NCBI GenBank assembly: GCA_028281785.1
Contig: JANQJG010000091.1
Coordinates: 1 to 64,000 of the forward strand
DNA from: Rhodospirillales bacterium
Lineage (GTDB): Bacteria > Pseudomonadota > Alphaproteobacteria > Rhodospirillales > Shumkoniaceae
Length of the DNA stretch: 64,000 nucleotides
Direction: 5' to 3'
This document shows, piece after piece, positions 5,683 through 46,816 of the stretch (positions within the stretch are counted from its first letter, which is position 1; each line of letters begins with the position of its first letter). The notes under the pieces were generated by a model. It did no database searches, was not told the DNA's origin, and worked only from the letters and a program-made list of their open reading frames with translations. The position numbers and the translations under genes were made by a program.

Positions 5683-7905
<2,223 letters not shown>

Positions 7906-7996: not shown

Positions 7997-8938
7997 ATGA
8001 TCCATATCACGCTAAAGCAGCTTCGCTATTTCGAAGCGCTGGCACGTCATGGCCATTTTGGACGCGCGGCAGATGCTTGTGCGATCTCTCAGCCCGCTTT
8101 GTCGATGCAGATCAAGGAATTGGAGGAATCGCTGGGCATCGCGTTATTCGAGAGAAGCGCAAGACAGGTCCGGCTGACCAACTTCGGAGAAGAGTTCGCG
8201 CTGCGCGTCCGCGACATCCTGCGCGCGGTCGATGAACTGGGCGACCTAGCGCGTGCCTCGCGTGACAAATTGTCGGGTCGGCTGCGCATTGGCGTGATCC
8301 CGACGGTCGCACCCTATCTGCTGCCCGCAATTATCGGGAACCTCACTCGAATGCATCCCCGGCTCGACATTCACGTGCGTGAGACGCTGACGCCGAAGCT
8401 CATACAAGAGCTGGCGGAAGGCCGGCTTGACACGGCAGTCGTTGCACTGCCGGTGTCCGAGCCCTCGTTTACCGAGGTTGCGCTGTTTGCGGAAAACTTC
8501 GTGCTGGTCCGGCCAGGCGAGGATGAAGGAAAGCCCGTGCCGAGTAGCGAATCGCTGCGCGAAATGAGACTGCTTCTGCTGGAGGAGGGGCACTGTTTTC
8601 GCGATCAAGCCCTCTCGTTCTGCAATATTCAATCGGCGCTGCCACGGGAAGTGCTGGACGGGAGTTCCCTGTCCACGCTTGTTCAAATGGTCGGCGCTCG
8701 AATCGGCGTTACTTTGATCCCGGAGATGGCCGTGGCGGTGGAGACACGCTCGGCGTCGGTGTCTGTCGATCGCTTTCAAGAGCCGCAACCATCGCGAACC
8801 ATTGGCATGATCTGGCGCAAAACGAGTCCAATGGTCAGACAGCTGTTGCAAGTTTCTGAAGTGGTTCGTCACTCGGCCGACGCATTGCGCGAGCAGCACA
8901 ATCCGGGGCCGTCATCGCGCGCGCCCCTTCTCAACTGA
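7997..8938 (+). CDS. oxyR: Hydrogen peroxide sensor OxyR (LysR family)
   Basis: 313 aa LysR-type regulator. The helix-turn-helix lies at about residues 20-45 (HFGRAADACAISQPALSMQI). The redox pair is intact: Cys200 and Cys209 in GHCFRDQALSFC, one residue off the E. coli numbering 199/208. Oxidation by peroxide forms the disulfide that switches promoter contacts. It is divergent from katG, the classic arrangement. Its last eight bases overlap the end of the convergent dctM gene at 8931, so the two transcripts collide without a spacer. Confidence 0.95.
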   Translation: MIHITLKQLRYFEALARHGHFGRAADACAISQPALSMQIKELEESLGIALFERSARQVRLTNFGEEFALRVRDILRAVDELGDLARASRDKLSGRLRIGVIPTVAPYLLPAIIGNLTRMHPRLDIHVRETLTPKLIQELAEGRLDTAVVALPVSEPSFTEVALFAENFVLVRPGEDEGKPVPSSESLREMRLLLLEEGHCFRDQALSFCNIQSALPREVLDGSSLSTLVQMVGARIGVTLIPEMAVAVETRSASVSVDRFQEPQPSRTIGMIWRKTSPMVRQLLQVSEVVRHSADALREQHNPGPSSRAPLLN

Positions 8939-29733: not shown

Positions 29734-31317
29734 GTGACAAACACTCTATCCTCATCCATTCGTCGATGCGGGTGCGGGGCAAATTACCGGCGATTTCTGC
29801 GATATGCGCTTCTGGCGGCCGTGGCGCTGGTCGTTGGCTTCCCGACGACGGGTGGCGCGGAGAATGGGCCGTTCGGGTTCGAGACCGTCGTGGAGCGGGC
29901 CCGTGAGCTGGCGGCCACCGGTTACGAGGAGCCGCGCCGGAATCTTCCGCCGCCCCTCGAGTCATTGAACTATGACCGCTATCGCGACATCCGCTTCCGG
30001 CCGGACCGTGCCCTCTGGCATGGCGAACGTCTGTTCGAGGTGCAGTTCTTCCATCTCGGCTTCCTCTACAGGGAACCTGTCGGGATCCATGTCGTGGAAG
30101 ACGGCCAGACGCGACAGCTTTCCTACAGCCAGGACATGTTCACGTTCGGGCCGCAGGCACCCCGGGATCCCCTGCCCGAGGCTCTCGGCTTTGCCGGTTT
30201 TCGGGTGCACTTTCCTCTGCATGGTCCCGGCTACAAGGACGAAGTCGCGGTCTTTCTCGGTGCCTCCTATTTCCGTGTCCTCGGCCGCGATCAGCACTAC
30301 GGCGCCTCCGTCCGCGGCCTGGCGATCGACACCGCCATGCCCCGCGGCGAGGAGTTTCCCCGTTTCCGCGATTTCTGGCTGATGACGCCGGAGCCCGAGG
30401 CGACGACCCTCACCCTCTATGCCCTTCTCGACAGCCCCCGATATGCCGGTGCCTACGCTTTCGTCATAAATCCTGGAACCGAGACGACGATCGCTGTGCG
30501 CGCGGCCCTGTTTCCCCGGGCCAGGGTCGGGAAGCTGGGCCTGGCGCCGCTGACCAGCATGTACCTATTCGGCGAGCGAACCGCCCGCCGTTTCGACGAT
30601 TACCGGCCCGCGGTACACGATTCGGACGGCCTGCTGATCCACACCGGTGCGGGAGAATGGATCTGGCGTCCGCTGGACAACCCGGCGCAGCTTCAAGTCA
30701 CCGCCTTTCTCGATGAGAACCCGCGCGGCTTCGGTTTGATGCAGCGCGCGCGGGCGTTCGATCGTTATCTCGACCTGGAATCGGCCTATGAGCGCCGCCC
30801 GAGCGTCTGGGTCGAGCCGGACGGGGACTGGGGCAAGGGTGCCGTCGAACTGGTCGAGATCCCTTCGGACGAGGAGGTCAACGACAACATCGTCGCCTAT
30901 TGGCGCCCGGACGCGGTGCCGAATGCCGACGACCGGATGGATCTCGCCTACACTCTCACGGCCCGTCTCGTGGAACCCACCCGTCCGCCTCTCGGCCGAA
31001 CCGTGCGCACGCTGATCGGCTCGGCCGCCATTCCCGGCAGCGATCACAGCCCGCCGGCGGAGATGCGACGATTCGTGGTCGATTTCGAAGGCGGCGACTT
31101 GCCGTTTCTGTCAGCCGGTGAACCGGTCGAGGCCCGGCTCGCCAACTCCGCAGGCGAAGTATCCGAAGTGACGGCGCGCAAGATTCCCGACACGGGAGGC
31201 TGGCGGGTTTCCTTTCGGCTGCTGCCGAAAGGAGGAGATACGGCCGATCTGAGCTTGTTCCTCGAACATCGCGGCCGGCGCGTTTCCGAAACCTGGAAGT
31301 ATCTGTGGCGGCCATGA
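29734..31317 (+). CDS. opgG: Periplasmic glucan biosynthesis protein OpgG/MdoG
   Basis: 527 aa periplasmic protein of osmoregulated glucan synthesis. GTG 29734 gives a leader with a hydrophobic core (YALLAAVALVVGF) and cleavage near TGGAEN. Family segments include FGFETVVERARELA, FQVQFF-like FEVQFFHLGFLY, PLTSMYLFGE, PAVHDSDGLLI and the WVEPDGDWGKGAVELVEIP block. OpgG acts on the beta-1,2-glucan backbone released by OpgH. The stop overlaps the opgH ATG (ATGA), so the two are one operon. Confidence 0.94.
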   Translation: MTNTLSSSIRRCGCGANYRRFLRYALLAAVALVVGFPTTGGAENGPFGFETVVERARELAATGYEEPRRNLPPPLESLNYDRYRDIRFRPDRALWHGERLFEVQFFHLGFLYREPVGIHVVEDGQTRQLSYSQDMFTFGPQAPRDPLPEALGFAGFRVHFPLHGPGYKDEVAVFLGASYFRVLGRDQHYGASVRGLAIDTAMPRGEEFPRFRDFWLMTPEPEATTLTLYALLDSPRYAGAYAFVINPGTETTIAVRAALFPRARVGKLGLAPLTSMYLFGERTARRFDDYRPAVHDSDGLLIHTGAGEWIWRPLDNPAQLQVTAFLDENPRGFGLMQRARAFDRYLDLESAYERRPSVWVEPDGDWGKGAVELVEIPSDEEVNDNIVAYWRPDAVPNADDRMDLAYTLTARLVEPTRPPLGRTVRTLIGSAAIPGSDHSPPAEMRRFVVDFEGGDLPFLSAGEPVEARLANSAGEVSEVTARKIPDTGGWRVSFRLLPKGGDTADLSLFLEHRGRRVSETWKYLWRP

Positions 31318-33302
31318 TGGATACGACTCATTTCCTCACCGAACGCTGGTCCGTGGCGGCTCGAATCCGGGATCTGGCCGTCATCGAAACGCCCCGGCCA
31401 GGGCTCAGACGGACCGGATTTTTTGGTCTCGTCGGGCTCACGACCATTGCCGCGACCTTCGTCATGGCCGAGGTTCTCTCGGCCAACGGCATGAGCCTGC
31501 TCGAAGCCGCGGTGCTTATCCTCTTCGCCGTCAACCTGGCCTGGATCGCGTTGTCGTTCTGGACGGCCATGGCCGGTTTCGTTCTCCGCCTGTTCGACCG
31601 CGACCCGGTCAGCCTGCGTCGTCGCAAGTGCGTGCCTCGGCCGACCTCCTTTCCGCGCACCGCGATCGTCATGCCTGTCTTCCAGGAGGACCCCGCGCGG
31701 GTTTTCGCTGGACTGGAGGCCATCTACAGGTCTCTCGCCGCGACCGGCCAACTGGAGGATTTCGACTTCTTCGTCCTCAGCGACACCCGGGACGAGGGGC
31801 TGGCCGAGGCCGAGCGTGCGGCTTGGCGGGATTTCAGTCGGCGGATGGACGGCGCCCGGGTGTTCTACCGACGGCGGCGGGACAATACCGGCCGCAAGGC
31901 GGGCAACATCGCCGATTTTTGCCGGCGCTGGGGGCGGCACTACCCCTACATGATCGTCCTCGATGCCGACAGCCTGATGTCCGGCGAGACCATTCTTGAG
32001 CTTGTGTCGCGGATGGAGGCGAATCCCCGGATGGGCCTTCTGCAGACGCAGCCGGTGCCGGTCAATCGCGAAACCCTTTTCGCGCGCTTCATCCAGTTCG
32101 CGTCACGGCTCTACGGTCCGATGTTGGCCAGCGGCGCCAGCTTTTGGCAGCTCGGCGAGGGCAATTTCTGGGGTCACAACGCGATCATCCGGACGCAAGC
32201 CTTCATGGCCCATTGCGGGTTGCCCGAGCTGCCCGGCAGGCCGCCGCTTGGCGGTCAGATCCTCAGTCACGATTTCGTCGAGGCGGCGCTCCTGCGCCGG
32301 GCCGGCTGGCATGTCTGCTTTGCCGACGATCTGGAGGGCAGTTACGAGGAGGTGCCGACCAATCTGATCGACTATGCCCAGCGTGACCGCCGCTGGTGCC
32401 AGGGCAACCTCCAGCATCTCAAGCTCGTGTCGGCCAGCGGCCTGCATCCGCTCAGCCGGCTTCATTTGCTCTGCGGCGCCCAAGCGTATCTGGCCTCCCT
32501 GTTCTGGCTCGCCATGCTGGTTCTTACGACGGTCGCCATCATCGCCCACGCCCTGTCCGGACACGCCTATTTCCCCTTCGACTACCAGCTGCATCCGATC
32601 TGGCCGGTGTTCAAATCGGCGGAGATCCACCTCCTGCTCACGGTGACCATGGCTCTTCTCTGGTTGCCCAAGCTGTGGGGGTTGGCACTGGCGCTGGTAA
32701 GAGCCGAGGCTAGGCGAGGCTTCGGGGGCGCCGGACGGCTTCTCCTGAGCGCCGGTTGCGAGGCGCTCTTCTCGGTTTTGATCGCGCCGCTGATGATGGT
32801 TTTCCATACCCGCTTCGTGGTTTCGGTGTTGGCGGGGTGGAGCGTCCAATGGTCGGCGCAGGCTCGCGACGAGCGTGGCCTGGCCCTCGGCGAAGCTGCC
32901 CGGAGACTGGGGCCGTCCGTTCTCCTGGGATTGGCGTGGGGGGCGGTCCTCTGGTGGTTCGCGCCCAATTTCATCTGGTGGTTTGTGCCTATTCTCGCAG
33001 GGTTATGGCTGGGCTTCCCCCTGGCCTTGTGGTCGAGTCGCAGTGATCTCGGCATCCGGGCACGAACCAGAGGCCTCCTGCTCACGCCCGAGGAGACGGC
33101 GCCGCCCCCGGTGCTTGAAGGTTTGCGGGCGGCGCTCCGGAAGGGCGGCAGCGAAGGCGTCGGGTTGGCGGAGAGAGAGTTCCCGGAGGTTCCCGACGAC
33201 CTCATCGGCCAGATGCCGACGCAAATCCTTGAGCGACCGTGGTCTCAACCCCCTCGAACGCCCCGCCGTATCGGGGCGCCAAAGGTGTCCACGCCCGCTT
33301 GA
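31314..33302 (+). CDS. opgH: Glucan biosynthesis glucosyltransferase OpgH/MdoH
   Basis: 662 aa inner-membrane GT2 enzyme that makes the linear beta-1,2-glucan from UDP-glucose. Membrane helices flank a cytoplasmic catalytic domain with TAIVMPVFQEDPARVFAGL, the D-x-D site VLDADSLMSG, the acceptor region ILSHDFVEAALLRRAGW and the Q-x2-RW motif RDRRWCQGNLQH. ATG 31314 is used; a GTG at 31305 is also in frame. It is shorter than E. coli MdoH (about 847 aa) because of a short N-terminus, as in other Alphaproteobacteria. Confidence 0.94.
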   Translation: MMDTTHFLTERWSVAARIRDLAVIETPRPGLRRTGFFGLVGLTTIAATFVMAEVLSANGMSLLEAAVLILFAVNLAWIALSFWTAMAGFVLRLFDRDPVSLRRRKCVPRPTSFPRTAIVMPVFQEDPARVFAGLEAIYRSLAATGQLEDFDFFVLSDTRDEGLAEAERAAWRDFSRRMDGARVFYRRRRDNTGRKAGNIADFCRRWGRHYPYMIVLDADSLMSGETILELVSRMEANPRMGLLQTQPVPVNRETLFARFIQFASRLYGPMLASGASFWQLGEGNFWGHNAIIRTQAFMAHCGLPELPGRPPLGGQILSHDFVEAALLRRAGWHVCFADDLEGSYEEVPTNLIDYAQRDRRWCQGNLQHLKLVSASGLHPLSRLHLLCGAQAYLASLFWLAMLVLTTVAIIAHALSGHAYFPFDYQLHPIWPVFKSAEIHLLLTVTMALLWLPKLWGLALALVRAEARRGFGGAGRLLLSAGCEALFSVLIAPLMMVFHTRFVVSVLAGWSVQWSAQARDERGLALGEAARRLGPSVLLGLAWGAVLWWFAPNFIWWFVPILAGLWLGFPLALWSSRSDLGIRARTRGLLLTPEETAPPPVLEGLRAALRKGGSEGVGLAEREFPEVPDDLIGQMPTQILERPWSQPPRTPRRIGAPKVSTPA

Positions 33303-33363: not shown

Positions 33364-34122
33364 TCAGCCGGCCAGACGCTTGAGCCGCTGGGAGGCGTCG
33401 CCGACGCCGCGCGGCTTGCCCCTTGCCTTTGCCAGGGCCGTGGCGATATGGGAATCATCGGACAAGCGGTCCGTGGACATGGCCTGCGCGACCCGTCCCA
33501 TGGCGTCTGTTTCCGCGCGGACGCGCGCGGTCTCGCTGTTCATCGCCTCGAGCGCCACGCTCACGGTGGAAAGGGCGTCCGCCAAACCCATCCCGCGGCG
33601 GCCGGCACGCTCCTCGGCGCGGCGTTTTCGCAGCTGGGCCGTCTCCATCTCGCGCCGCGCGCTCTGCAGCTGGGACCGCGAGTCCTTGAGCTTCCGCGCG
33701 AGTTCGTCGAAGGACTGGCGCAGTTCCGCGCTCCAGGCTTCCACCTCTTCATCTTCCTTTTGCTCGCGATCGAGTTCAGCTTGAAGTTCCTCGAGCCGAT
33801 CGACCAGTCGGTGGAGGCTGCTCTCGACCTCCGCCTTCCGCTCCGCGTCCTGAATGTCGTCGAGTTCCGCCTGGAGATGACGCGCGGCTTCGAGATGTTC
33901 TTCATAGGTCCGGCGGATCTGCTGCGTTTCCTGGTGTTCGCGCCGAACTTCCGCCTCGGCCTCGGCCAATCGCTGGCCCAGCTTGTGCAGCTCGGCCTCC
34001 ATCATACTGATCTGCGCGCGGCTTGCGGTTTCGGGATCGAAGGTCACGACGGCCTGCGTGAACTCGTTCAGAACCTCGGCCGCCTTACCGGTTCCGTAGT
34101 GTTTCAGGAAACGCCACACCAT
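33364..34122 (-). CDS. Coiled-coil protein of unknown function
   Basis: 252 aa, ATG 34122 with AGGAG seven bases upstream. Residues 35-165 form one long, highly charged heptad-repeat coiled coil rich in Glu, Arg and Gln. A short N-terminal segment (VWRFLKHYGTGKAAEVLNEF) could be an amphipathic membrane-binding helix. The shape recalls PspA/IM30 proteins, but their conserved start is absent, so I do not assign it. It is divergent from a small membrane ORF with an OxyR-like palindrome between them, hinting at a stress role. No homologue is recognised. Confidence 0.8.
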   Translation of the reverse strand: MVWRFLKHYGTGKAAEVLNEFTQAVVTFDPETASRAQISMMEAELHKLGQRLAEAEAEVRREHQETQQIRRTYEEHLEAARHLQAELDDIQDAERKAEVESSLHRLVDRLEELQAELDREQKEDEEVEAWSAELRQSFDELARKLKDSRSQLQSARREMETAQLRKRRAEERAGRRGMGLADALSTVSVALEAMNSETARVRAETDAMGRVAQAMSTDRLSDDSHIATALAKARGKPRGVGDASQRLKRLAG

Positions 34123-34278
34123 AGACACTCTCCTAACCCGCGATCTTTTGTTTGGTTACATCCGTGGGCAGGAGATGAGGGCTGATCCAAGGCAACGCAA
34201 ATCGATTTATATGCCGCGCTTGATAGATAAAACCGATCAGCCGCCGATGTGAACTTCGCGACCGTTCAATGACGAGCG

Positions 34279-34304
34279 ATAGACTTAAGCTATCAATATT
34301 CTAT
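34279..34304. promoter_or_regulatory. OxyR-type palindrome ATAG-N7-CTAT-N7-CTAT
   Basis: ATAG (34279-34282) and CTAT (34290-34293) are seven bases apart, inside the longer palindrome GATAG..CTATC. A further CTAT follows after another seven bases (34301-34304). This is the OxyR tetranucleotide spacing. It lies in the 264-base divergent region between the coiled-coil gene and the small membrane ORF. A weaker ATAG-N7-CGAT is at 34223-34237. Confidence 0.5.
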
Positions 34305-35114: not shown

Positions 35115-35257
35115 CTCGGTTTCCCACCTATGTAGGAAGCGTGAATACCGGCAGCGACGGCTTAAGACGGAATTCCGAGGCGGGGTTGTCCGCGGGACAC
35201 GAGACTTTCCCAAAGATTTCGTTCCCCGATCCCTTTCCACATAGATGGAGAAACGAC

Positions 35258-35950
35258 ATGCACCTTGATCGACGACGGTTCGTTCAGGGCACCGGCGCGG
35301 CCCTTCTAGCCGGGCTCGCTCCGACATTTACAGGTGTTGCGCGAGCCGCCGCGCCCTTCGCGCATCCGCCCTTGCCCTATGCCGAGGCCGCGCTCGTCCC
35401 GACAATCTCAGAGCGGACGGTTCGGCTTCATTACGGCGTTCACCATGCGGGCTATTTCCGCAATCTCAACCGACTGGTCGAGGGGACCGACTTCGCGGAC
35501 ATGGGCCTGGAGGACGTGGTGCGGAAGACGGCCGGTCGGGCCGAGCATTCGGGCGTCTTCAACAATGCCGGGCAGGCCTGGAATCACATCGTCTACTGGG
35601 AGCAGATGACCCCGGGCGGACCGTCCGCTCCTGGCGGCGATCTGGCTCGCATGATCGATCGGGACTTCGGCGGTTTGGCCGATTTCCGAGCGGCGTTTCT
35701 GAAGCAGGCCACCGGCGTCTTCGGGAGCGGCTGGGCTTGGCTGGTACTGGAAGAGGGCAAGCTCGCCCTGATGGGCACGCAGAACGCGGACAATCCCCTG
35801 GCCCATGGCAAGGCCACGCTCCTCGGTATCGATGTCTGGGAGCATGCCTATTACCTTGACTACGAGAGCCGGCGGGGGGCACATGTGACCGCGGTGCTCG
35901 AAAAGCTCGTCAATTGGGACGTGGTCGCGGGACGTCTCGCGGCCAAGTGA
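35258..35950 (+). CDS. sodB: Tat-exported Fe/Mn superoxide dismutase
   Basis: 230 aa. The N-terminus DRRRFVQGTGAALLAGLAP is a twin-arginine signal with cleavage near ARAA, so the enzyme should fold with its metal in the cytoplasm and be exported. The mature part is an Fe/Mn-SOD: first His ligand in LHYGVHHAGYF, second in AWNHIVYWEQM, then Asp and His in DVWEHAYYLDY. GGAG precedes ATG 35258 by seven bases. It removes superoxide in the periplasm. It is followed in the same direction by an OxyR paralogue. The Fe versus Mn preference is not certain. Confidence 0.9.
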   Translation: MHLDRRRFVQGTGAALLAGLAPTFTGVARAAAPFAHPPLPYAEAALVPTISERTVRLHYGVHHAGYFRNLNRLVEGTDFADMGLEDVVRKTAGRAEHSGVFNNAGQAWNHIVYWEQMTPGGPSAPGGDLARMIDRDFGGLADFRAAFLKQATGVFGSGWAWLVLEEGKLALMGTQNADNPLAHGKATLLGIDVWEHAYYLDYESRRGAHVTAVLEKLVNWDVVAGRLAAK

Positions 35951-36098: not shown

Positions 36099-37025
36099 AT
36101 GCCGACGCTGAGACAGCTTCGCTATTTGGTCGCCGTGGCCGACACGTTGAATTTCCGGCGTGCCGCCCAGGCCTGCCATGTAAGCCAACCGACTCTCAGC
36201 GCCCAGCTCAGGGCCCTGGAGGAACGGCTCGAGGTGCAACTCGTCGAACGCAGCCGCCATCGGGTCCTGCTGACTCCCATCGGCCGGGAGATCGCCACCC
36301 GGTCCCGCGAAGTCCTGGCCAGCGTCCAGGACATCGTCGACATCGCCGACCGCGGCCGCCACATCCTGGAAGGCATGCTGAAGCTGGGCGTGCTTCCGTC
36401 GCTTGGACCCTATCTGCTGCCGCATGTCCTGCCTTATCTCAAGGTGCGCTATCCCAAGCTCGCGCTCTATCTGCGCGAGGATACCGCGGGGCGCCTTCTG
36501 CGCCAGCTCGACGATGGTGATCTCGATCTCCTGATCTTTCCCCTTCCCGTGACCCGCGACGGCTTCGACTACACGCCCCTGTTCGATGAACCCCTTCTGA
36601 TTGCCTTTCCAAGGGAACACCCGCTTGCGAATAAAGAGAGGCCTCGCGGGCGCGACCTAAAGGGGGAGACGATCCTCGCGCTCGAGCGTGGGCACAGCCT
36701 TCACGACACGGTGCTCGACCTGGCCCGCGAGCACGGGGCAAAGCCGCTTCTGGATTTCGAGGCGACCAGCCTGGATACGCTGCGGCAGATGGCCACGATG
36801 GGGGTCGGCGCGACCTTTCTGCCCGCGCTTTACGTCAAGGCGGAGGCCGTCGACGACCCGCAGATCGCGGTGCGGCATTTCTCGGACCCTGAACCCAAGC
36901 GTCGCATCGGCCTGGTTTGGCGCAGGAAGTCGGCGCGGCGGAGCGAATATCTCGCACTGGCGACACATGTGCGTGACGCCCTGGCCGACAGCGTGCCCGA
37001 GGTCATGTTGTTGAGCCGGGATTAA
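36099..37025 (+). CDS. OxyR-like LysR regulator lacking the redox cysteines
   Basis: 308 aa LysR-type protein with clear OxyR-like architecture: helix-turn-helix near FRRAAQACHVSQPTLSAQL and the VLPSLGPYLLPHVLPYLK start of the sensor domain. At the redox-loop positions it has Ser200 and Ala209 (GHSLHDTVLDLA), where OxyR at 7997 has Cys200 and Cys209. It therefore cannot form the peroxide-sensing disulfide and must respond to another signal or act constitutively. GGGAG precedes ATG 36099. It lies just downstream of the SOD gene, and an OxyR-type palindrome follows 44 bases after its stop. Confidence 0.88.
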   Translation: MPTLRQLRYLVAVADTLNFRRAAQACHVSQPTLSAQLRALEERLEVQLVERSRHRVLLTPIGREIATRSREVLASVQDIVDIADRGRHILEGMLKLGVLPSLGPYLLPHVLPYLKVRYPKLALYLREDTAGRLLRQLDDGDLDLLIFPLPVTRDGFDYTPLFDEPLLIAFPREHPLANKERPRGRDLKGETILALERGHSLHDTVLDLAREHGAKPLLDFEATSLDTLRQMATMGVGATFLPALYVKAEAVDDPQIAVRHFSDPEPKRRIGLVWRRKSARRSEYLALATHVRDALADSVPEVMLLSRD

Positions 37026-37068: not shown

Positions 37069-37089
37069 TTGATAGAATTTATCTATCAA
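37069..37089. promoter_or_regulatory. OxyR-type palindrome TTGATAG-N7-CTATCAA
   Basis: A perfect 7-bp inverted repeat around a seven-base spacer contains ATAG-N7-CTAT, the OxyR half-operator. It is the strongest of the three such sites in the window. It lies after the Cys-less OxyR paralogue and upstream of the zeta-like/ftsH/mrp genes, although those begin 685 bases away. Confidence 0.5.
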
Positions 37090-37773: not shown

Positions 37774-38133
37774 ATGGTTGCACTCAACAAGAAAGCGAAG
37801 GGCGAGGAGGCAAAACTGAGCATCGGCCAAGAGCTGGCCTTCAAGATCAAGGCTCGGCGCAACCGGCTCCTTGGGCTTTGGGCGGCGTCGCGCATGGGCT
37901 TCGATGATGATGCGAGCCTCGACTATGCGCAGGGGATCGTGGGTCAAGGCGTGGTTGCCACGGACGAAGAATTGGCGCGACTGGTTTCAGCCGATCTGTC
38001 CGTGAGTGGTATTGAGGATTCCGCGGCCGGCGTCGTCCACGAACTGAACCGGCTCGATGAGTTGGCGAGAATGGAACTCGGCGCCGTGGATGGAGGCTCG
38101 CCGGGCTCGGAGAGCCGGGCGGACGGCCCGTAA
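37774..38133 (+). CDS. DUF1476 protein, paralogue of ATP synthase inhibitor zeta
   Basis: 119 aa. The core ELAFKIKARRNRLLGLWAAS with the following MGF..ASLDYAQGIV is the DUF1476 signature of the alphaproteobacterial F1-ATPase inhibitor zeta. In characterised zeta the inhibitory region is the extreme N-terminus, usually TTFDDREKAFE-like; here it is replaced by a basic VALNKKAKGEE. The protein is also about 15 residues longer at the C-terminus. GGAG lies seven bases before ATG 37774. It is followed after 39 bases by ftsH. It may be a zeta variant with altered activity; function is inferred from family only. Confidence 0.8.
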   Translation: MVALNKKAKGEEAKLSIGQELAFKIKARRNRLLGLWAASRMGFDDDASLDYAQGIVGQGVVATDEELARLVSADLSVSGIEDSAAGVVHELNRLDELARMELGAVDGGSPGSESRADGP

Positions 38134-38172: not shown

Positions 38173-40131
38173 ATGGGTCCGAACAAAACCGGTGGAAATC
38201 GGATGCCGATCCTGCTGTTTGCGGGTCTGTTTCTTGTTTCCCTCTACCTTTTGTTCTCGTCAATGCAGTCCGAGAACAGGTCCGTGGACCGTGTCGAGGT
38301 GTCGTACAGCGAGCTTCGGGACGCCGTGAAGGCGGGTTCTGTCGTCGCCGTTACCCTTCATGGGCGGGACATCTCGGCCCAAGCGACAGACGGTCGTACG
38401 CTCGTGACACACGCTCCGAGTGATCCCGAACTGATGCCGCTCTTGGAAGAAAACGGCGTCAGTATCACCGTGAAGCCGGTGGAAAGTGGCCCTTCCATTC
38501 TTGGAATCCTTTTGTCCTGGCTGCCCTTCCTGCTGCTGATCGGTGTCTGGATTTACTTCATGCGTCGTGGCCAGGGAGGAATGGGCAATCTGATGGGCTT
38601 CGGTAAGTCCCGGGCCCGCCTCCTCGAGCGGTCCGGCACGCCGGTCACGTTTGCCGATGTCGCCGGGGTCGACGAGGCCAAGCAGGAGCTGGAGGAAGTC
38701 GTCGAGTTTCTCCGCAGGCCGCAGAAGTTCACGGGCATCGGCGCGCGCATTCCGACCGGCGTTCTTCTTTCCGGACCACCGGGAACCGGCAAGACCCTGT
38801 TGGCCCGGTCGGTCGCCGGGGAGGCCAACGTGCCCTTCTTCACGGTGTCGGGTTCGGATTTCGTCGAGATGTTCGTCGGCGTCGGCGCGTCCCGCGTGCG
38901 CGACATGTTCGAGCAGGCCAAGCGCAACTCGCCCTGTATTCTTTTCATCGACGAGATCGATGCCGTCGGCCGTCATCGGGGCGCTGGCCTCGGCGGCGGG
39001 CATGACGAGCGGGAGCAGACACTCAACCAGATGCTCGTGGAGATGGACGGCTTCGAGGGCAACGAAGCCGTGATCGTGATCGCCGCCACCAACCGTCCGG
39101 ACGTGCTCGACCCCGCGCTGCTCCGGCCCGGGCGGTTCGATCGTCAGGTTGTCGTCCCCAATCCGGACATTCTCGGACGCGAGCAGATTCTATCGGTGCA
39201 TATACGGAAAACGGCGACCGCCGCGGACCTGGATTTGCGGGCGATCGCGCGGGGAACGCCAGGCTTTTCCGGCGCGGATCTGGCCAATCTCGTGAACGAG
39301 GCCGCGTTGCTGGCCGCGCGTCGGAACCGCCTCAACATCGGCATGGATGAACTCGAGGCCGCCAAGGACAAGATTCTGATGGGCGTCGAACGCCGCTCGT
39401 TGGTTATGAGCGACGACGAGAAGGCCCTCACCGCGTATCACGAGGCCGGTCACGCGCTCGTCGCCTTGTTCGCCGACGGCCATGACCCGCTGCACAAGGT
39501 CTCCATCATTCCGCGCGGTCGCGCGTTGGGTGTGACCCTCGCCTTGCCGGAGCGGGATCGCCACGCCTACTCACTGAAGGAGCTCCGGGCGCGTTTGGCC
39601 ATGATCTTTGGCGGCCGTGTTGCCGAGGAGTTGATTTTCGGTACGGAAAACGTAACCACCGGCGCGGCCAGCGACATCCGCCAGGCCACGGATATCGCCC
39701 GGCGCATGATCACGGAGTTCGGTTTCTCCGACAAGCTCGGCCGGCTGCGGTTCGCGACGAACGAGGAGGAGGTGTTCCTCGGCCGCTCGGTGACCGAGCG
39801 CAAGAATATCTCGGATGCGACGGCCGAAATCATCGATGCGGAAATCCATCGGCTCGTGAGTGAGGCCCAGGCCGAGTCGCGCCGCATTTTAACAGAGCGG
39901 ATGGACGCCCTGCATACCCTCGCCAAGGGGTTGCTGGAACATGAGACGCTGTCCCGCGAGGAGATCGACGCGCTGCTGCGCGGCGAGCCGATCCAGCGGG
40001 ATACACCATCCGACCCCGACGGCAGTCTTCAGCGCGATCGTCGGCGTCCCGGCACGACCGTGCCAAAGAGCGGCAAGGGGCGGCGGCCATCGGGCGGCAA
40101 ACTACAGCCCGGCCTCCAGGCCGGAACCTAA
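38173..40131 (+). CDS. ftsH: ATP-dependent zinc metalloprotease FtsH
   Basis: 652 aa membrane AAA+ protease. Two N-terminal helices (residues 11-30 and about 107-127) flank a periplasmic domain. Walker A GPPGTGKT starts at Gly201, Walker B is ILFIDEID, and the arginine finger region is RPGRFDRQV. The zinc site HEAGH is at residues 423-427, with the third ligand in the family's later Asp region. It degrades damaged or unassembled membrane proteins and some regulators. Its setting next to zeta-like and Mrp genes is unlike the usual tilS-ftsH context, so it may be a second copy with a special client set. Confidence 0.95.
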
Positions 40132-40209: not shown

Positions 40210-42513
40210 ATGACCATCGTGTCCATCGAACGTCCGGATCTTGTGGCCAGCCCCCATTCTCGCCTGACTTCGCGTTTCGCGGGATGGGTGGGGTTTTTTC
40301 TGGCCGCCGGCCTCACCGCGTTCTTCGCCAGCAAGGTGCCGGTCGTGGCCGCGGGCGAAACCTTGCGATGGACCGTCGACTGGGTGCCGACGCTGGGCTA
40401 TCAGCTGTCCTTCTATGTCGACGGGCTCAGCCTTCTGTTTGCGTTGCTGATCTCGGGAATCGGCGCATTCATCTTCCTCTACACTCCGGTTTACCTCAGC
40501 GCCTATCGCCATGCGTCGCGCCTGGTTGTCGTCCTCATCCTGTTCATGATTTCCATGCTCGGCCTGGTTATGGCCGACGACATGATCGCCTTGTTCGTGT
40601 TCTGGGAGCTGACCACCATCACCTCCTATATTCTGATCGGCTTCGATCACGACAACGCCAAGGCGCGCCGCTGTGCCCTGCAGGCCTTGCTGGTGACGGG
40701 GGCAGGGGGGCTGGTGATGCTTGCCGGGTTCGTGCTTCTCGGCAGCGCCGCCGGCACTTTCCAGCTTTCGGAGCTCAAGGCCCAGGGATTCCATCTCGCG
40801 GAACATGCGGCCTACCTGCCCATCCTGATCCTGATACTCATCGGCGCCTTCACCAAATCGGCCCAGATCCCGTTTCATTTCTGGCTGCCCAACGCGATGG
40901 CTGCCCCGACTCCCATCAGCGCCTATCTGCACTCCGCCACCATGGTCAAGGGCGGGGTCTACCTCATGGCGCGCATGCATCCCGTTCTCGGGGGCACACC
41001 CGAATGGGCTTGGATTCTGACTATCATCGGTGCCGCGACGGCGGTGGTGGCGTCGGTCTTGGCGCTCCGCCAGACCGACCTCAAACTCGCGCTCGCCTAC
41101 ACCACGGTCATGGCGCTGGGGACACTGACCATGTTCCTGGGCGCCGAGGCCGGCGTCGCCATCGCCGCCGCGGTCACCTTCCTTCTTGTCCACGCGCTCT
41201 ACAAATGCGCCCTGTTCCTGGTCGTGGGAATCATCGACCACGGGACGGGCACGCGCGACGCCCCCCGCCTTGGCGGTCTTGCCCGGGCGATGCCGATCAC
41301 CACCGCCGCGGCCGCCGCGGCCGCCCTTTCCATGGCCGGTTTCCCGCCTTTTCTCGGGTTCATCGGCAAGGAGCTCAAGTATGAGGGGGCGCTGGCCATC
41401 GCTTCGGAGCCGGGGTTGGCCATCACGGCCGCCGTCGCCGCCAATGCAATGATGGTGGCGGTGGCGGCGATCGTCGGCCTTCGTCCGTTCTTCGCCCGGC
41501 CCGTGGCGACGCCGAAGGTACCCCATGAGGCACCGTTCCGCATGTGGATCGGGCCTGTCACCCTGGCCGCGCTCGGGCTGTTTTTCGGGCTCGTGCCGCC
41601 GCTTGTCGCGAACGGGCTGGTACAGCCGGCGGTCGCCTCCGTGCTGGGTGCGCCGCAGGTCGTCAAGCTGGCCCTATGGCACGGGATCAACCTGCCGCTC
41701 CTGCTCAGTGTCGTCACCCTCTTACTCGGCGTGCTCGTCTATGTCCGGCATCTCCAAATCCGTGACAGCCTCGCAGCGTTCGAGGCGCGGCTGCCGACCG
41801 ATACGGATCGCGTCTACGATCTCTCGATTGATGCCCTGAAGGACCTCGCCGCCTGGCAGACCCGCCTGATTCAGAGCGGGGTTCTGAGGCGCTATCTGTT
41901 CGTCGTCTTCGCCGTTGTCGTCCTGGCCGTCGGGGGGACTCTGCTGATGAAAGACGGGCTGCGCCTTCCCCAGGCTTGGCCCGACGTACCGCTCCCGGTC
42001 TGGGGCATGACCGCCCTCGTGCTGGCCGGCGCCGTCCTAACCGTTCTCGCGAAATCCCGTCTGCTCGCGATCTGCGCGCTGGGCTCCGTCGGCTTCGGCG
42101 TGGCCCTGATCTTTCTCATGTACGGCGCGCCGGACGTCGCCATGACCCAGCTTCTGGTCGAGATCCTGTTCGTAATCATCATTGCGATCGTGCTTCTGCG
42201 GCTGCCGCGCTTCGGCAAGAGGACGGCGGGTTTGGGCGCTTCCCGATGGCAGGACGGGGTGCTCGCGGTCGGAACCGGTCTGGTGACCACGGCGCTGATG
42301 CTGGCGGCGACCCGGGGTCCCATCGATCGCGAGATCACCGCCTATTTCGAAGCCAATAGCGCAACCGAGGCCTATGGCCGCAACATCGTCAACGTGATCC
42401 TCGTGGATTTTCGGGCGCTTGATACGCTCGGCGAGATCCTGGTGGTGGCCGTGGCGGCCTTTGCCGTGGTCGGTCTGGTCAAGCTGCGCCAGCGGCGGTG
42501 GAGGGCGTCATGA
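40210..42513 (+). CDS. mrpA: Mrp Na+/H+ antiporter subunit A
   Basis: 767 aa. The N-terminal two thirds is a NuoL-like proton channel with about 14-16 helices, including the conserved [16 protein letters not shown]-like region and the Lys-bearing [20 protein letters not shown]. The C-terminal part (about residues 560-767) contains the DUF4040/MbhD- and MbhE-like helices peculiar to MrpA. It starts 78 bases after ftsH in the same direction. The stop overlaps mrpB (ATGA). It is the large subunit of the seven-protein secondary antiporter. Confidence 0.95.
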
Positions 42514-42911
42514 GGTCGCTCATCCTGTCGACCGCGGTCCATCTGCTATTCGGGCTGATGATTCTCTTCTCGTTGTTCTTGCTGCTTCGCGGGCACAACC
42601 TCCCGGGCGGCGGCTTTGTCGGCGGCCTGGTGGCGGCGATCGCCTTCACCCTTTTTGCCATCGCCGACTCGGCGGCGGCGGTACGTCGCGTTCTGCGGAT
42701 CGACCCGCGCTATCTGGTGGTGGCGGGCTTGGCGGTTGCGCTTCTGTCGGGGTTGTTCAAGGCCGCGGCGGGCATGCCCTATCTCACCGGTGCCTGGGTT
42801 CACCCCGGCGGACTTCCCCTGGGAACCCCGCTGCTGTTCGATGTCGGCGTCTATCTGACGGTGGTGGGATCCGTCCTGACCCTGGTGCTAACCATGGAAG
42901 AGGAGCGGTAA
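42510..42911 (+). CDS. mrpB: Mrp Na+/H+ antiporter subunit B
   Basis: 133 aa from ATG 42510 inside the mrpA stop; a GTG at 42498 is less likely. Four membrane helices are predicted, with the MrpB motifs [21 protein letters not shown] and [18 protein letters not shown]. It is an essential small subunit of the Mrp complex. The gene ends two bases before mrpC. Confidence 0.94.
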
Positions 42912-42913
42912 GC

Positions 42914-43312
42914 ATGGAAACCGTTCTCGCCATCCTCGTCGGCTCCCTCGTTGCCGCGACCGTGTTCCTGATGCTCAGCCGCAATATCGTGAAGTTCCTC
43001 TTCGGGCTCGTGCTGCTCGGCAACGCGGCCAACCTGCTGATCTTCGCCGCCGGCCGCCTGACCTACGCGCGGCCGGGCCTGATCCCGGACGGCGCGGCCG
43101 CGCCCTTAGGCGACGTCGCCAACGCGCTGCCGCAGGCGATGGTTCTCACCGCGATCGTGATCGGCTTCGGCTTGACCGCCTTTGCCTTCGCGCTTGTCTA
43201 CCGGGCCTACCAGGAGCTCGGCACAACCGATACGGACGAGATGCGGGTCGCCGAGCCGCCGCTCGATGCTTCCCAGCTCGACACCCCGGCACAGGACCGG
43301 AGGGCGGCATGA
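42914..43312 (+). CDS. mrpC: Mrp Na+/H+ antiporter subunit C (NuoK-like)
   Basis: 132 aa from ATG 42914 with AGGAG eight bases upstream. Three helices resemble NuoK, with [20 protein letters not shown] and the [14 protein letters not shown]-like segment ([17 protein letters not shown]) carrying the proton-path residues. The C-terminal 30 residues are hydrophilic. A longer open frame upstream is a shadow through mrpB. The stop overlaps the mrpD ATG. Confidence 0.94.
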
Positions 43313-44817
43313 GCTGGTGGCCCGTCCTCCCGATCCTCGTGCCGCTCACGACGGCGATCCTGGGCTTCGCCGCCATGCGCTCGCTCCGGGCGCAGAAGGT
43401 GATCAGCATTATTGGCGCGGCCGCGCTCCTGGTCGTGTCGATCGGCCTGCTCGATCGCGTCTGGGGCGGCGGCATCCTTGTCGCCCAGATGGGGAACTGG
43501 CCGGCGCCCTTCGGCATCTCGCTGGTCGCCGACGCGCTCAGCGCCGCGATGGTGTTCATCACCGGCGTGATCGGGATCGCGGTGGCCGTCTATTCGCTGG
43601 CCGATATCGACCGCCGCCGTAACGCCTTCGCCTTTCATCCCCTGCTGCATGTGCTTCTGACCGGGGTCTGCGGCGCGTTCCTCACGGGTGATCTGTTCAA
43701 TCTCTATGTCTGGTTCGAGGTGATGCTGATCGCCTCTTTCGCCCTGCTCGTGCTCGGCGGCGGCCGGGCGCAGCTCGACGGGGCGGTGAAGTATGTCGCC
43801 CTCAACCTGATCTCGACCCTGCTCCTGCTCAGCGCGGTCGGCCTCCTCTACGGCATGACCGGCACCCTCAACATGGCCGATCTGCATCTGAAGGTGCAGG
43901 AGGTCGAGAACACCGGGCTGCTGACGGCGGTGGCGGTGCTGTTCGCCGTCGCCTTCGGCATCAAATCGGCGGTGTTTCCGTTGTTTTTCTGGCTCCCGGC
44001 CTCTTATCACACGCCGCCGGTCGCCATCTCCGCCTTCTTCTCGGCGCTGCTGACCAAGGTCGGGGTCTACGCCCTCATCCGTACCTTCACCCTGATCTTC
44101 ACCCATGACGTCGGCTACACTCATACGGCGCTGCTGGCCGTCGCCGCGCTGACGATGATCACCGGGGTGCTCGGCGCCGCCGCGCAGAACGAGATCCGAC
44201 GCATCCTCTCCTTCCATATCGTCAGCCAGATCGGCTACATGGTGCTGGGGCTGGCGTTGTTCACGCCGCTGGCGCTGATCGGGGCGGTCTTCTACATCCT
44301 CCACCACATCATCGTGAAGGCCAACCTGTTCCTGATCAGCGGGGTCGTGAACCGGACCGCGGGGTCCTTCGACCTGGATGCGCTCGGCGGCCTCTATAAA
44401 TCGCGTCCCTTCCTCGGCGTGCTGTTTCTCATTCCGGCCCTGTCGCTGGCCGGCCTGCCGCCGCTTTCCGGATTCTGGGCCAAGCTCATCCTGATCAAGG
44501 CGAGTCTGGAGCTCGAGGCCTATGTCATTTGCGCCATCGTCCTCCTGGTCGGATTGCTGACGCTGTTTTCGATGACCAAGATCTGGCACGAGGCGTTCTG
44601 GAAGCCGCGTCCGGTACCGCGTGAGAACCCGTTCGCCGCGGCGGTCGTCGGGCGTCGGGAGATGGCCCTGCTGATGACTCCCATCGTCGCCTTGGCGAGC
44701 CTCACGGTGGCGATCGGCCTCTATGCCGAACCCTTGATGGACCTCTCGGCACAGGCGGCGGCGCAGCTCCTCGATCCGAGCGACTATGTGCGGGCGGTGC
44801 TCGGAGGCGTGCCATGA
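43309..44817 (+). CDS. mrpD: Mrp Na+/H+ antiporter subunit D (NuoN/NuoM-like)
   Basis: 502 aa with about 14 helices, homologous to the antiporter-like subunits of complex I. The conserved Glu is in [16 protein letters not shown], the Lys in [20 protein letters not shown], and the broken-helix region in [20 protein letters not shown]. It forms one of the two proton channels of the Mrp complex with MrpA. It overlaps both neighbours by four bases (ATGA). Confidence 0.95.
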
Positions 44818-45203
44818 TCGCGGAAGGACTTCGGCGCGCCTGGAAGGCCATCTCGCTCGGTGTCTACTTTCTCTACGAGCTGGTGGTCGCCAGCCTGCGT
44901 GTCGTCTGGGACGTGATCACGCCAACGATTCACAGCCGCCCCGGGGTGGTCGCCGTCCCCCTCGACGCCGAGAGCAATATCGAGATCACCCTCCTCGCCA
45001 ATATGGTCTCCCTGACACCGGGAACCCTCAGCCTCGAGGTGTCGGCGGATCGGCGGACGCTCTTCGTGCATGCGATGTTCATCGATGAGGTCGAGGACAT
45101 TCGCCGCGAAGTAAAGGGGGGCATGGAACGGAGATTACTGGAGGTCACGAGATGCCGTTCACCGGAACCGGACTTGTCGCCTGGTCCGTCGATCTCGCGC
45201 TGA
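44814..45203 (+). CDS. mrpE: Mrp Na+/H+ antiporter subunit E
   Basis: 129 aa. Two helices at the start ([20 protein letters not shown]) are followed by the cytoplasmic domain with [19 protein letters not shown] and [10 protein letters not shown], both typical of MrpE. Most MrpE proteins end near ERRLLEVTR; here the frame continues for 16 more residues and overlaps mrpF by 52 bases. The extension may simply reflect loss of the ancestral stop. Confidence 0.9.
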
Positions 45204-45457
45204 TCCTGCTGCTCGCGGCCGTGGCGCTGACCCTGATCCGCATGGCGCGAGGACCGAGCCTTCCCGACCGCGTGGTCGCGCTCGACCTTCTGGCCGTGCT
45301 CAGCATCGCGCTGATCGCGGTCTTTGCCGTGGCCACCGAGCAGACGGCGTTTCTCGACGTCGCCATCGCCTTGGCCCTGACCGGCTTCCTCGGGACCGTC
45401 GCCTTCGCCCGCTACGCCGAGCGCCGGCGCCGGGACCGGCGGACCGATAGAGCATGA
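45152..45457 (+). CDS. mrpF: Mrp Na+/H+ antiporter subunit F
   Basis: 101 aa with three predicted helices. The MrpF signature MARGPSLPDRVVALDLL follows the first helix, with the conserved Asp in this loop, and FLDVAIALALTGFLGTVAFARY forms the last helix. A GGAGG motif lies upstream inside mrpE. The 52-base overlap with mrpE should couple translation. Confidence 0.93.
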   Translation: MPFTGTGLVAWSVDLALILLLAAVALTLIRMARGPSLPDRVVALDLLAVLSIALIAVFAVATEQTAFLDVAIALALTGFLGTVAFARYAERRRRDRRTDRA

Positions 45458-45461
45458 AGGT

Positions 45462-45848
45462 ATGCCGATGGCCGATATCCTGACCGCCTTTTTTCTCGTT
45501 ATCGGGGCCGCTTTCGCCTTCGTGGCCGCGCTGGGGATCGCCCGCATGCCCGACATCATGATCCGCATGCACGCCTCGACCAAGGCGGGAACCCTCGGTG
45601 TCGGCCTGATCGTGACCGCCGTCGCCATCCACTTCGCGGAGTTGGGCGTGGCCGTGCGGGCGGTCGCGATCATCGCCTTTCTGCTTTTCACGGCGCCGGT
45701 CGCGGCCCACGCCATCGCCCGCGCGGCCTATCGCACCGGCGTCAGGCTTTGGGAGGGCACGGTGATCGATGAACTCGGCCGGGACGTCTCCACGCCGGCC
45801 GTCACGGAAACCACAACCTCTCCGCAAATGGGACGGAGGACATCATGA
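45462..45848 (+). CDS. mrpG: Mrp Na+/H+ antiporter subunit G
   Basis: 128 aa with three helices and the MrpG motif IARMPDIMIRMHASTKAGTLG, then a C-terminal APVAAHAIARAAYRTG segment. ATG 45462 and ATG 45468 are both possible; AAGG is better placed for the second. It completes the Mrp operon. Its stop overlaps the uspA ATG, placing the stress protein in the same transcript. Confidence 0.93.
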   Translation: MPMADILTAFFLVIGAAFAFVAALGIARMPDIMIRMHASTKAGTLGVGLIVTAVAIHFAELGVAVRAVAIIAFLLFTAPVAAHAIARAAYRTGVRLWEGTVIDELGRDVSTPAVTETTTSPQMGRRTS

Positions 45849-46816
45849 AGCGTTTCAAGAACATCCTGCTTGTCTACGATCGCCGGGTCGCCAACGAGAC
45901 GACCATCACCCGGGCGACGGAGCTGGCCCGGCGCAACGAGGCGCGGCTGACATTCGTCGAGGTGATCGAGGATCTGCCCGGCGATCTTCGCCTGCTGGTC
46001 TCCGGAGGCTCCCGGAAGAGCCTGGAGGAAGCTTTTCTCGAAGAGCGCGAAGAGCGGCTGCGGCGCATGGCCGTGTCCATCGAGCAGGCGGGGGTCGCTG
46101 TCGAAACGAAGGTTCTTGTCGGCACGCCGTTCTTGGAGATCGTACGCGAGGTCATGCGCAACGAGCGGGATCTCGTCATCCTGTCGGCCGAGGGCCGGGG
46201 AGGGCTGAAGAATCTGCTCTTCGGCAGCACCTCCATGCACCTCATGCGCAAATGCCCGACGCCGGTATGGGTCGTCAAGCCGTCGGCCGAGCGCAGCGAC
46301 TACGCCAGCATCCTTGCCTGCGTCGATCCGAGTACGGAGAACGGCAAGGACGCGCTGAACGTCCAGATCATGGATCTGGCAACGTCCCTGGCAGAGCTGG
46401 AGGGCGCACGGCTGCACATTGCCCATGCGTGGGAACTGATCGGAAAGGATTTGGTGGCCAGCAAGTCGGAGCTGCCGGCGGGGGTGCTTGACAGCATCAA
46501 ACTGAAAAACCGAGACCTGCACGCCGAACGGCTTCAGGGATTGCTCGGCAGATACAGCCTCGAGAAGCTCGACCACGAGATTCATCTGGTCGAGGGGGAT
46601 CCGCGCGCCGTCATTCCCGAGATCGCGCAGAGCCGGTCGGCCGACCTGATCGTGATGGGCACGGTTTGTCGGACGGGAATTCCGGGCTTTTTCATCGGCA
46701 ATATCGCCGAGGAGGTGCTGATCCAGGCCGAGTGCTCGGTCCTCACCGTCAAGCCGGAAGGTTTCCGCACGCCCATCGAGGTCAGCGAATATGTGAGTTC
46801 CCGTTCCGCGGCCTGA
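45845..46816 (+). CDS. Tandem-domain universal stress protein
   Basis: 323 aa with two UspA domains. The first (residues 1-140) has the opening KRFKNILLVYD and a loop resembling the ATP-binding pattern near GRGGLKNLLFGSTSMHLMRKCPTPVWVVKP. The second (about 150-315) ends VMGTVCRTGIPGFFIGNIAEEVL and SVLTVKPEGF. This is an UspE-like architecture. It overlaps mrpG (ATGA), which suggests co-regulation of the antiporter with general stress signalling. Confidence 0.93.
   Translation: MKRFKNILLVYDRRVANETTITRATELARRNEARLTFVEVIEDLPGDLRLLVSGGSRKSLEEAFLEEREERLRRMAVSIEQAGVAVETKVLVGTPFLEIVREVMRNERDLVILSAEGRGGLKNLLFGSTSMHLMRKCPTPVWVVKPSAERSDYASILACVDPSTENGKDALNVQIMDLATSLAELEGARLHIAHAWELIGKDLVASKSELPAGVLDSIKLKNRDLHAERLQGLLGRYSLEKLDHEIHLVEGDPRAVIPEIAQSRSADLIVMGTVCRTGIPGFFIGNIAEEVLIQAECSVLTVKPEGFRTPIEVSEYVSSRSAA

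Follow-up and report, generated by a model that had tools for sequence, protein, structure and literature searches.

The window, which is the whole 64 kb stretch of DNA analysed here, contains an OxyR-like regulator gene that follows a superoxide dismutase gene, and a canonical oxyR located elsewhere. The latter is identified as canonical because it diverges from katG, from which it is separated by 112 bp. The genes needed for the comparison are:

5683..7884, minus strand: katG (PRK15061, 1348 bits; cut-off 981)
7997..8938, plus strand: canonical OxyR with C200 and C209, the comparison protein, divergent from katG
35141..35950, plus strand: Fe/Mn superoxide dismutase (Sod_Fe_N/C) with a Tat-like leader, RRRFVQG
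36099..37025, plus strand: OxyR-derived LysR-type regulator with S200 and A209 replacing the redox cysteines, an intact ORF of 308 aa

OxyR is the textbook thiol switch. The window's canonical OxyR has cysteines at residues 28, 200 and 209. In the protein encoded at 36099-37025, serine occupies the position of the peroxidatic Cys199 (residue 200) and alanine that of the resolving Cys208 (residue 209), exactly as the preliminary description of this DNA had read them. The sole cysteine of the protein is Cys26, which lies in the DNA-binding domain. The regulator comprises the Pfam domains HTH_1 and LysR_substrate and its top NCBIfam match is PRK11151 (OxyR) at 264 bits, with the runner-up family at 152 bits. 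The equivalog cut-off of PRK11151 is 329 bits and both this protein and the window's canonical OxyR (248 bits) fall below it. The predicted structure has an OxyR-like fold (pLDDT 89.6), and the best Foldseek match to the model is 4x6g.

Relatives of the regulator were first sought in genomes from its own family and order, and a profile of these was then run through the order, class and phylum. In the closest matches from the family and order (mostly 44–54% identity), the peroxidatic cysteine is gone and the second cysteine is present. Across the family found with the profile, position 200 is R, H, Y, L, Q, T, A or S, and position 209 is usually Cys. The main tree was built from 134 proteins with both cysteine columns removed. 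Here, the regulator falls within a clade of 47 rows (SH-aLRT 100) that is nested among canonical OxyRs, and a mixture-model tree of 56 rows agrees, with a 23-row subset of the clade supported at 100/100. The peroxidatic cysteine is absent from every one of the 47 members, so its absence from the window protein is not due to chance. At the base of the clade, the window regulator is sister to the regulator of locus L171, which comes from another family and is 67% identical. The second cysteine, C208, is kept in 41 of the 47 members including that of L171, and was therefore most likely lost secondarily in the window protein.

The tree placement and profile scores together exclude a CbbR- or CysB-like identity and uphold the earlier reading of an OxyR paralogue that lacks redox cysteines. 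The comparison with CbbR was made by profile score (NF045990, 97 bits as against 264 for OxyR); the tree covered CysB and E. coli NhaR. Judged from its sequence, then, the 36099-37025 protein is an OxyR descendant minus the peroxide-sensing cysteines. A separate OxyR-like group has a GDG motif, with Gly in place of Cys199, and mostly retains the second cysteine (L126, L127, L177, L178, L183, L185 and L186). It was considered as part of the clade and rejected, as it falls outside, is without antiporter neighbours and represents another loss of Cys199. At L126, L127 and L177, and at the Cys-containing L176, a related gene adjoins the regulator; in L126 this encodes a 280-aa protein with sigma-70 regions 2/4 (RpoH-like).

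The loss of both cysteines could be taken as the mark of a functionless, decaying OxyR duplicate. This is extremely improbable, as the ORF is intact and closely matched by its sister from another family, many columns are invariant in the alignment of the Cys-less clade, and both the operator and the neighbourhood are conserved as explained below.

The sensor domain appears to have been remodelled instead. In OxyR structures, the residues lining the pocket for peroxide include T100, T129 and H198. In the clade H198 (35/47), T100 (40/47) and R266 (47/47) are largely kept, and three pocket residues change together: T129 becomes P in 40 of 47 members, R201 becomes H in 37, and residue 218 is D in 43. 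Of the functions proposed in the preliminary description, ligand sensing is the best reading of this domain, and a reversible ligand- or ion-dependent change may take the place of the disulfide. It is also conceivable that the regulator senses redox state through another residue, either the second cysteine of most relatives, as its retention in 41 members might suggest, or Cys26, which is present in the window protein. As C208 is lost in the window protein, Cys26 sits at a position that varies across the clade alignment and the clade's neighbours are not redox genes, such a sensor is quite unlikely.

Gene neighbourhoods were compared with fixed queries over approximately 5 kb on either side of 49 clade loci and 76 canonical OxyR loci, the latter chosen by similarity to the query. 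NhaA, MrpA, SbtA or SulP is found near 33 of the 49 clade regulators and near none of the 76 canonical ones, counts whose independence, as expressed in Fisher p-values, is overstated because the loci share ancestry. Singly, NhaA is present at 20/49, MrpA at 8/49 and SbtA at 7/49 loci; the 16 loci without any of the four transporters within ~5 kb include some contig ends. Universal stress protein (Usp) genes are nearby at 18/49 clade loci versus 0/76. The opposite is observed for AhpC, AhpD or rubrerythrin, which are found at 0/49 clade loci versus 33/76 canonical loci. In the first relatives examined, the regulator adjoins or diverges from nhaA and a gene for a UspE-like protein, and in further relatives the neighbours are an mrp operon, SbtA/SbtB or SulP. 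At L257 (5001-7178), a tandem pair of clade regulators lies next to an mrp operon. TerC-family genes occur near the clade regulators of L265 and L272 (both divergent) and L175, and also at 4 canonical loci, and at L246 and L248 an isocitrate dehydrogenase gene, with no transporter, is beside the regulator.

Further support came from homologues fetched separately from plasmids as a check, six of them Cys-less and two with both cysteines. The neighbours were taken from the record annotation in five cases and, for Paracoccus aminovorans, from a sequence search. Every one of the six Cys-less homologues adjoins NhaA or Mrp: Mrp and Usp in Tateyamaria, Mrp in Ketogulonicigenium, NhaA in Novosphingobium, Ensifer and Paracoccus aminovorans, and NhaA, Usp and carbonic anhydrase in Actibacterium. 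Each also has an exact ATAG-N7-CTAT site immediately upstream. Of the homologues with both cysteines, the one in Paracoccus alcaliphilus is next to ahpCF, and the Azospirillum copy is unannotated and without an exact site. On plasmid pT173d of Ensifer canadensis (L296, L302), two copies lie ~5 kb apart, a Cys-containing one next to katG and a Cys-less one next to nhaA.

These neighbourhoods bear on what had been proposed from the window alone. There, the regulator was noted to follow an exported superoxide dismutase gene, which is correct, and a check for a Cys-less clade conserved with sod was proposed; the clade exists, while the linkage to sod does not, as a superoxide dismutase is found at 1 of the 49 loci, namely the window itself. 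A partnership with sod is rejected on this count. That the protein serves as a local regulator of the dismutase gene, which lies 148 bp upstream and in the same direction, is very unlikely for the same reason and because the gap between the two genes contains no ATAG-N7-CTAT site; the gene at 35141-35950 is probably not part of the system. Similarly, since sod is private to the window, peroxide genes are absent from the clade loci and transporters are present at 33 of them, the further layer of peroxide control that had been envisaged is unlikely. Judged from the close relatives, the regulator most likely acts on Na+/H+ antiporters and bicarbonate transporters, and not on peroxide defence.

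In the window, the genes downstream of the regulator and on the same strand fit this assignment. They are preceded by a putative operator, and the list includes a second exact site from elsewhere in the window:

34278..34294, no strand: second exact site, GATAGACTTAAGCTATC, with ATAG-N7-CTAT at 34279-34293; intergenic, upstream of the minus-strand gene at 33364-34128
37071..37087, no strand: putative operator, GATAGAATTTATCTATC, with an exact ATAG-N7-CTAT at 37072-37086; between the regulator and the zeta-ftsH-mrp-usp genes
37774..38133, plus strand: ATPase inhibitor subunit zeta homologue, which in L171 is also between the regulator and mrpA
38173..40131, plus strand: FtsH protease (TIGR01241, 833 bits against a cut-off of 600)
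40210..42513, plus strand: MrpA Na+/H+ antiporter subunit (Proton_antipo_M, MbhD, MbhE)
42419..43312, plus strand: MrpC-containing ORF (Oxidored_q2 at residues 170-276)
42498-42911: probable mrpB, an ORF overlapping the MrpC ORF, assigned by position and size only
43309..44817, plus strand: MrpD (Proton_antipo_M)
44814..45203, plus strand: MrpE (MNHE)
45152..45457, plus strand: MrpF (MrpF_PhaF)
45462..45848, plus strand: MrpG (PhaG_MnhG_YufB)
45845..46816, plus strand: UspE-like universal stress protein, overlapping mrpG; homologues flank the regulator in relatives

The gene order in L171 is regulator-zeta-mrpA-mrpD, and this shared order links the mrp operon of the window with its regulator despite the intervening ftsH. 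The window's genome has no NhaA and has one SbtA, which is located away from the regulator locus.

The OxyR array, as given by its consensus (PMC10580950), has ATAG-N7-CTAT as one of its halves. The palindromes that the preliminary description had placed near 34279 and 37069 are real, and are the only exact copies of this pattern in the 64 kb (shuffle mean 0.07). The site at 37072 is the best of the 13 exact sites in the genome when compared to the clade consensus (21/23), and lies ~690 bp before the zeta gene and 3.1 kb before mrpA; an equivalent site is present in L171 at 3695, again with the regulator on one side and mrp on the other. Across the clade, an exact site is found upstream of the regulator in 30 of 48 regions (shuffles average 0.09 and reach at most 1; the reversed pattern gives 1), and in 5 of 23 regions upstream of canonical OxyRs. 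In 26 of 34 clade regions, a second half-site, ATnG, is located 22–23 bp away on the transporter side, with ~1.1 expected per offset. That of L171 is exactly 22 bp off and faces mrp, and that of the window is degenerate and weak (ACTG at -22). Viewed as a sequence pattern, the palindrome with its offset half-site resembles the usual LysR layout of recognition and activation sites. Genome-wide, the 13 exact sites compare with 25 for the reversed pattern and are mostly inside ORFs, so that there is no enrichment; the attempt to derive a genome-wide regulon from them was dropped, and the regulon is therefore probably small and local.

Near the other exact site, at 34279, there is a one-mismatch copy at 34222-34238. 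Downstream of both, the minus-strand gene at 33364-34128 encodes a coiled-coil protein of 254 aa with no match in Pfam. Elsewhere in the window, the plus-strand gene for the MdoH glucan glucosyltransferase (31305-33302) overlaps an ORF at 29734-31317, also on the plus strand, whose 527-aa product has no NCBIfam match and is possibly MdoG-like.

As the operator is of the OxyR type, the recognition-helix residues Q29, P30 and S33 are retained, and a canonical OxyR coexists in the window, the protein could be a peroxide-blind competitor or modulator at OxyR's own ATAG-N7-CTAT sites, tuning katG and other peroxide genes. Against this, the 400 bp upstream of the katG-linked oxyR contain no exact site (the best has 2 mismatches), and the conserved neighbours of the clade are ion transporters, with AhpC, AhpD or rubrerythrin near none of its loci. 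This role is unlikely.

Building on the sequence, tree, operator pattern and neighbourhoods described above, it is instead quite probable that this is an OxyR-derived regulator in which peroxide sensing has been exchanged for another signal, related to Na+, pH or bicarbonate, and which controls Na+/H+ antiport, either by activation or by repression. The ancestor would have been an alphaproteobacterial OxyR whose peroxidatic cysteine was lost once, in the common ancestor of the clade, with remodelling of the sensor pocket; the window protein would then have lost the second cysteine as well. The DNA-binding side would still be OxyR-like and would bind ATAG-N7-CTAT together with the half-site approximately two helical turns toward the transporter gene. 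Candidate targets in the clade are the Na+/H+ antiporter (NhaA or Mrp), SulP or Na+-dependent bicarbonate transporters, the UspE-like protein and, usually, the regulator's own gene. For the window protein, the most likely target is the zeta-ftsH-mrpA-G-uspE operon, reached via the 37072 site. As its signal, the protein would read a reversible state of a ligand or ion, linked to Na+, pH or inorganic carbon, using the cleft that contains Cys199 in OxyR.

With the OxyRs of E. coli, Pseudomonas and Corynebacterium, the window protein shares sequence family, tree placement, fold and the ATAG-N7-CTAT operator. It differs from them in having neither the peroxidatic nor the resolving cysteine, T129 and R201 are replaced in its clade, and the clade has Na+/H+ and HCO3- transporters in place of peroxidases as its neighbours. 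In E. coli, NhaR is a LysR-type activator of nhaA in response to Na+ and high pH (PMC6307784), and is thus similar in being a LysR regulator linked to a Na+/H+ antiporter. NhaR is, however, a distant long branch that groups outside OxyR with CysB in the 134-protein tree, a weak placement given the long branches, and it is absent from the best 25 of the 53 NCBIfam matches of the window protein. The antiporter link apparently arose independently in the two.

The cyanobacterial CcmR/NdhR has a regulon of sbtA/sbtB, ndh-I3 and the mnh operon (PMC3401165), which combines SbtAB with an Mrp/Mnh-type operon as do the clade neighbourhoods. CcmR differs in being a homologue of CbbR, the profile that the window protein matches so much less well than OxyR. 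As the antiporters, SbtA/SbtB, SulP and, once, carbonic anhydrase recall the CcmR regulon, Na+, pH and inorganic carbon are the leading candidates for the signal. LsrB/VtlR is described as a redox-responsive lineage apart from OxyR and unique to Rhizobiales (PMC11975290), and is similar in being a second LysR regulator alongside OxyR in alphaproteobacteria.

More broadly, and with slightly less than even confidence, the clade may represent a widespread proteobacterial family: OxyR minus its peroxide switch, with a cleft that senses pH, Na+ or inorganic carbon, and with a unified Na+/H+/HCO3- regulon (NhaA, Mrp, SbtAB, SulP and UspE) that parallels CcmR from a different LysR branch. Open-access literature yielded no description of a Cys-less OxyR paralogue family, or of an OxyR tied to nhaA, NhaR or Mrp, which counts as a weak negative. 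We know of no NhaR equivalent in alphaproteobacteria, and the clade points to a Na+/H+ antiporter regulator in this class. LysR control of Na+/H+ antiport is already known from NhaR, and here it would have been reached from OxyR. The clade also provides a natural experiment in the conversion of a covalent redox sensor to another use, with fold and operator kept and the thiol switch gone. In public annotation, clade members are often named "hydrogen peroxide-inducible genes activator" (Novosphingobium, Ensifer, Actibacterium), so that deducing peroxide regulons from the name would give wrong results. On pT173d of Ensifer canadensis, both copies bear this name.
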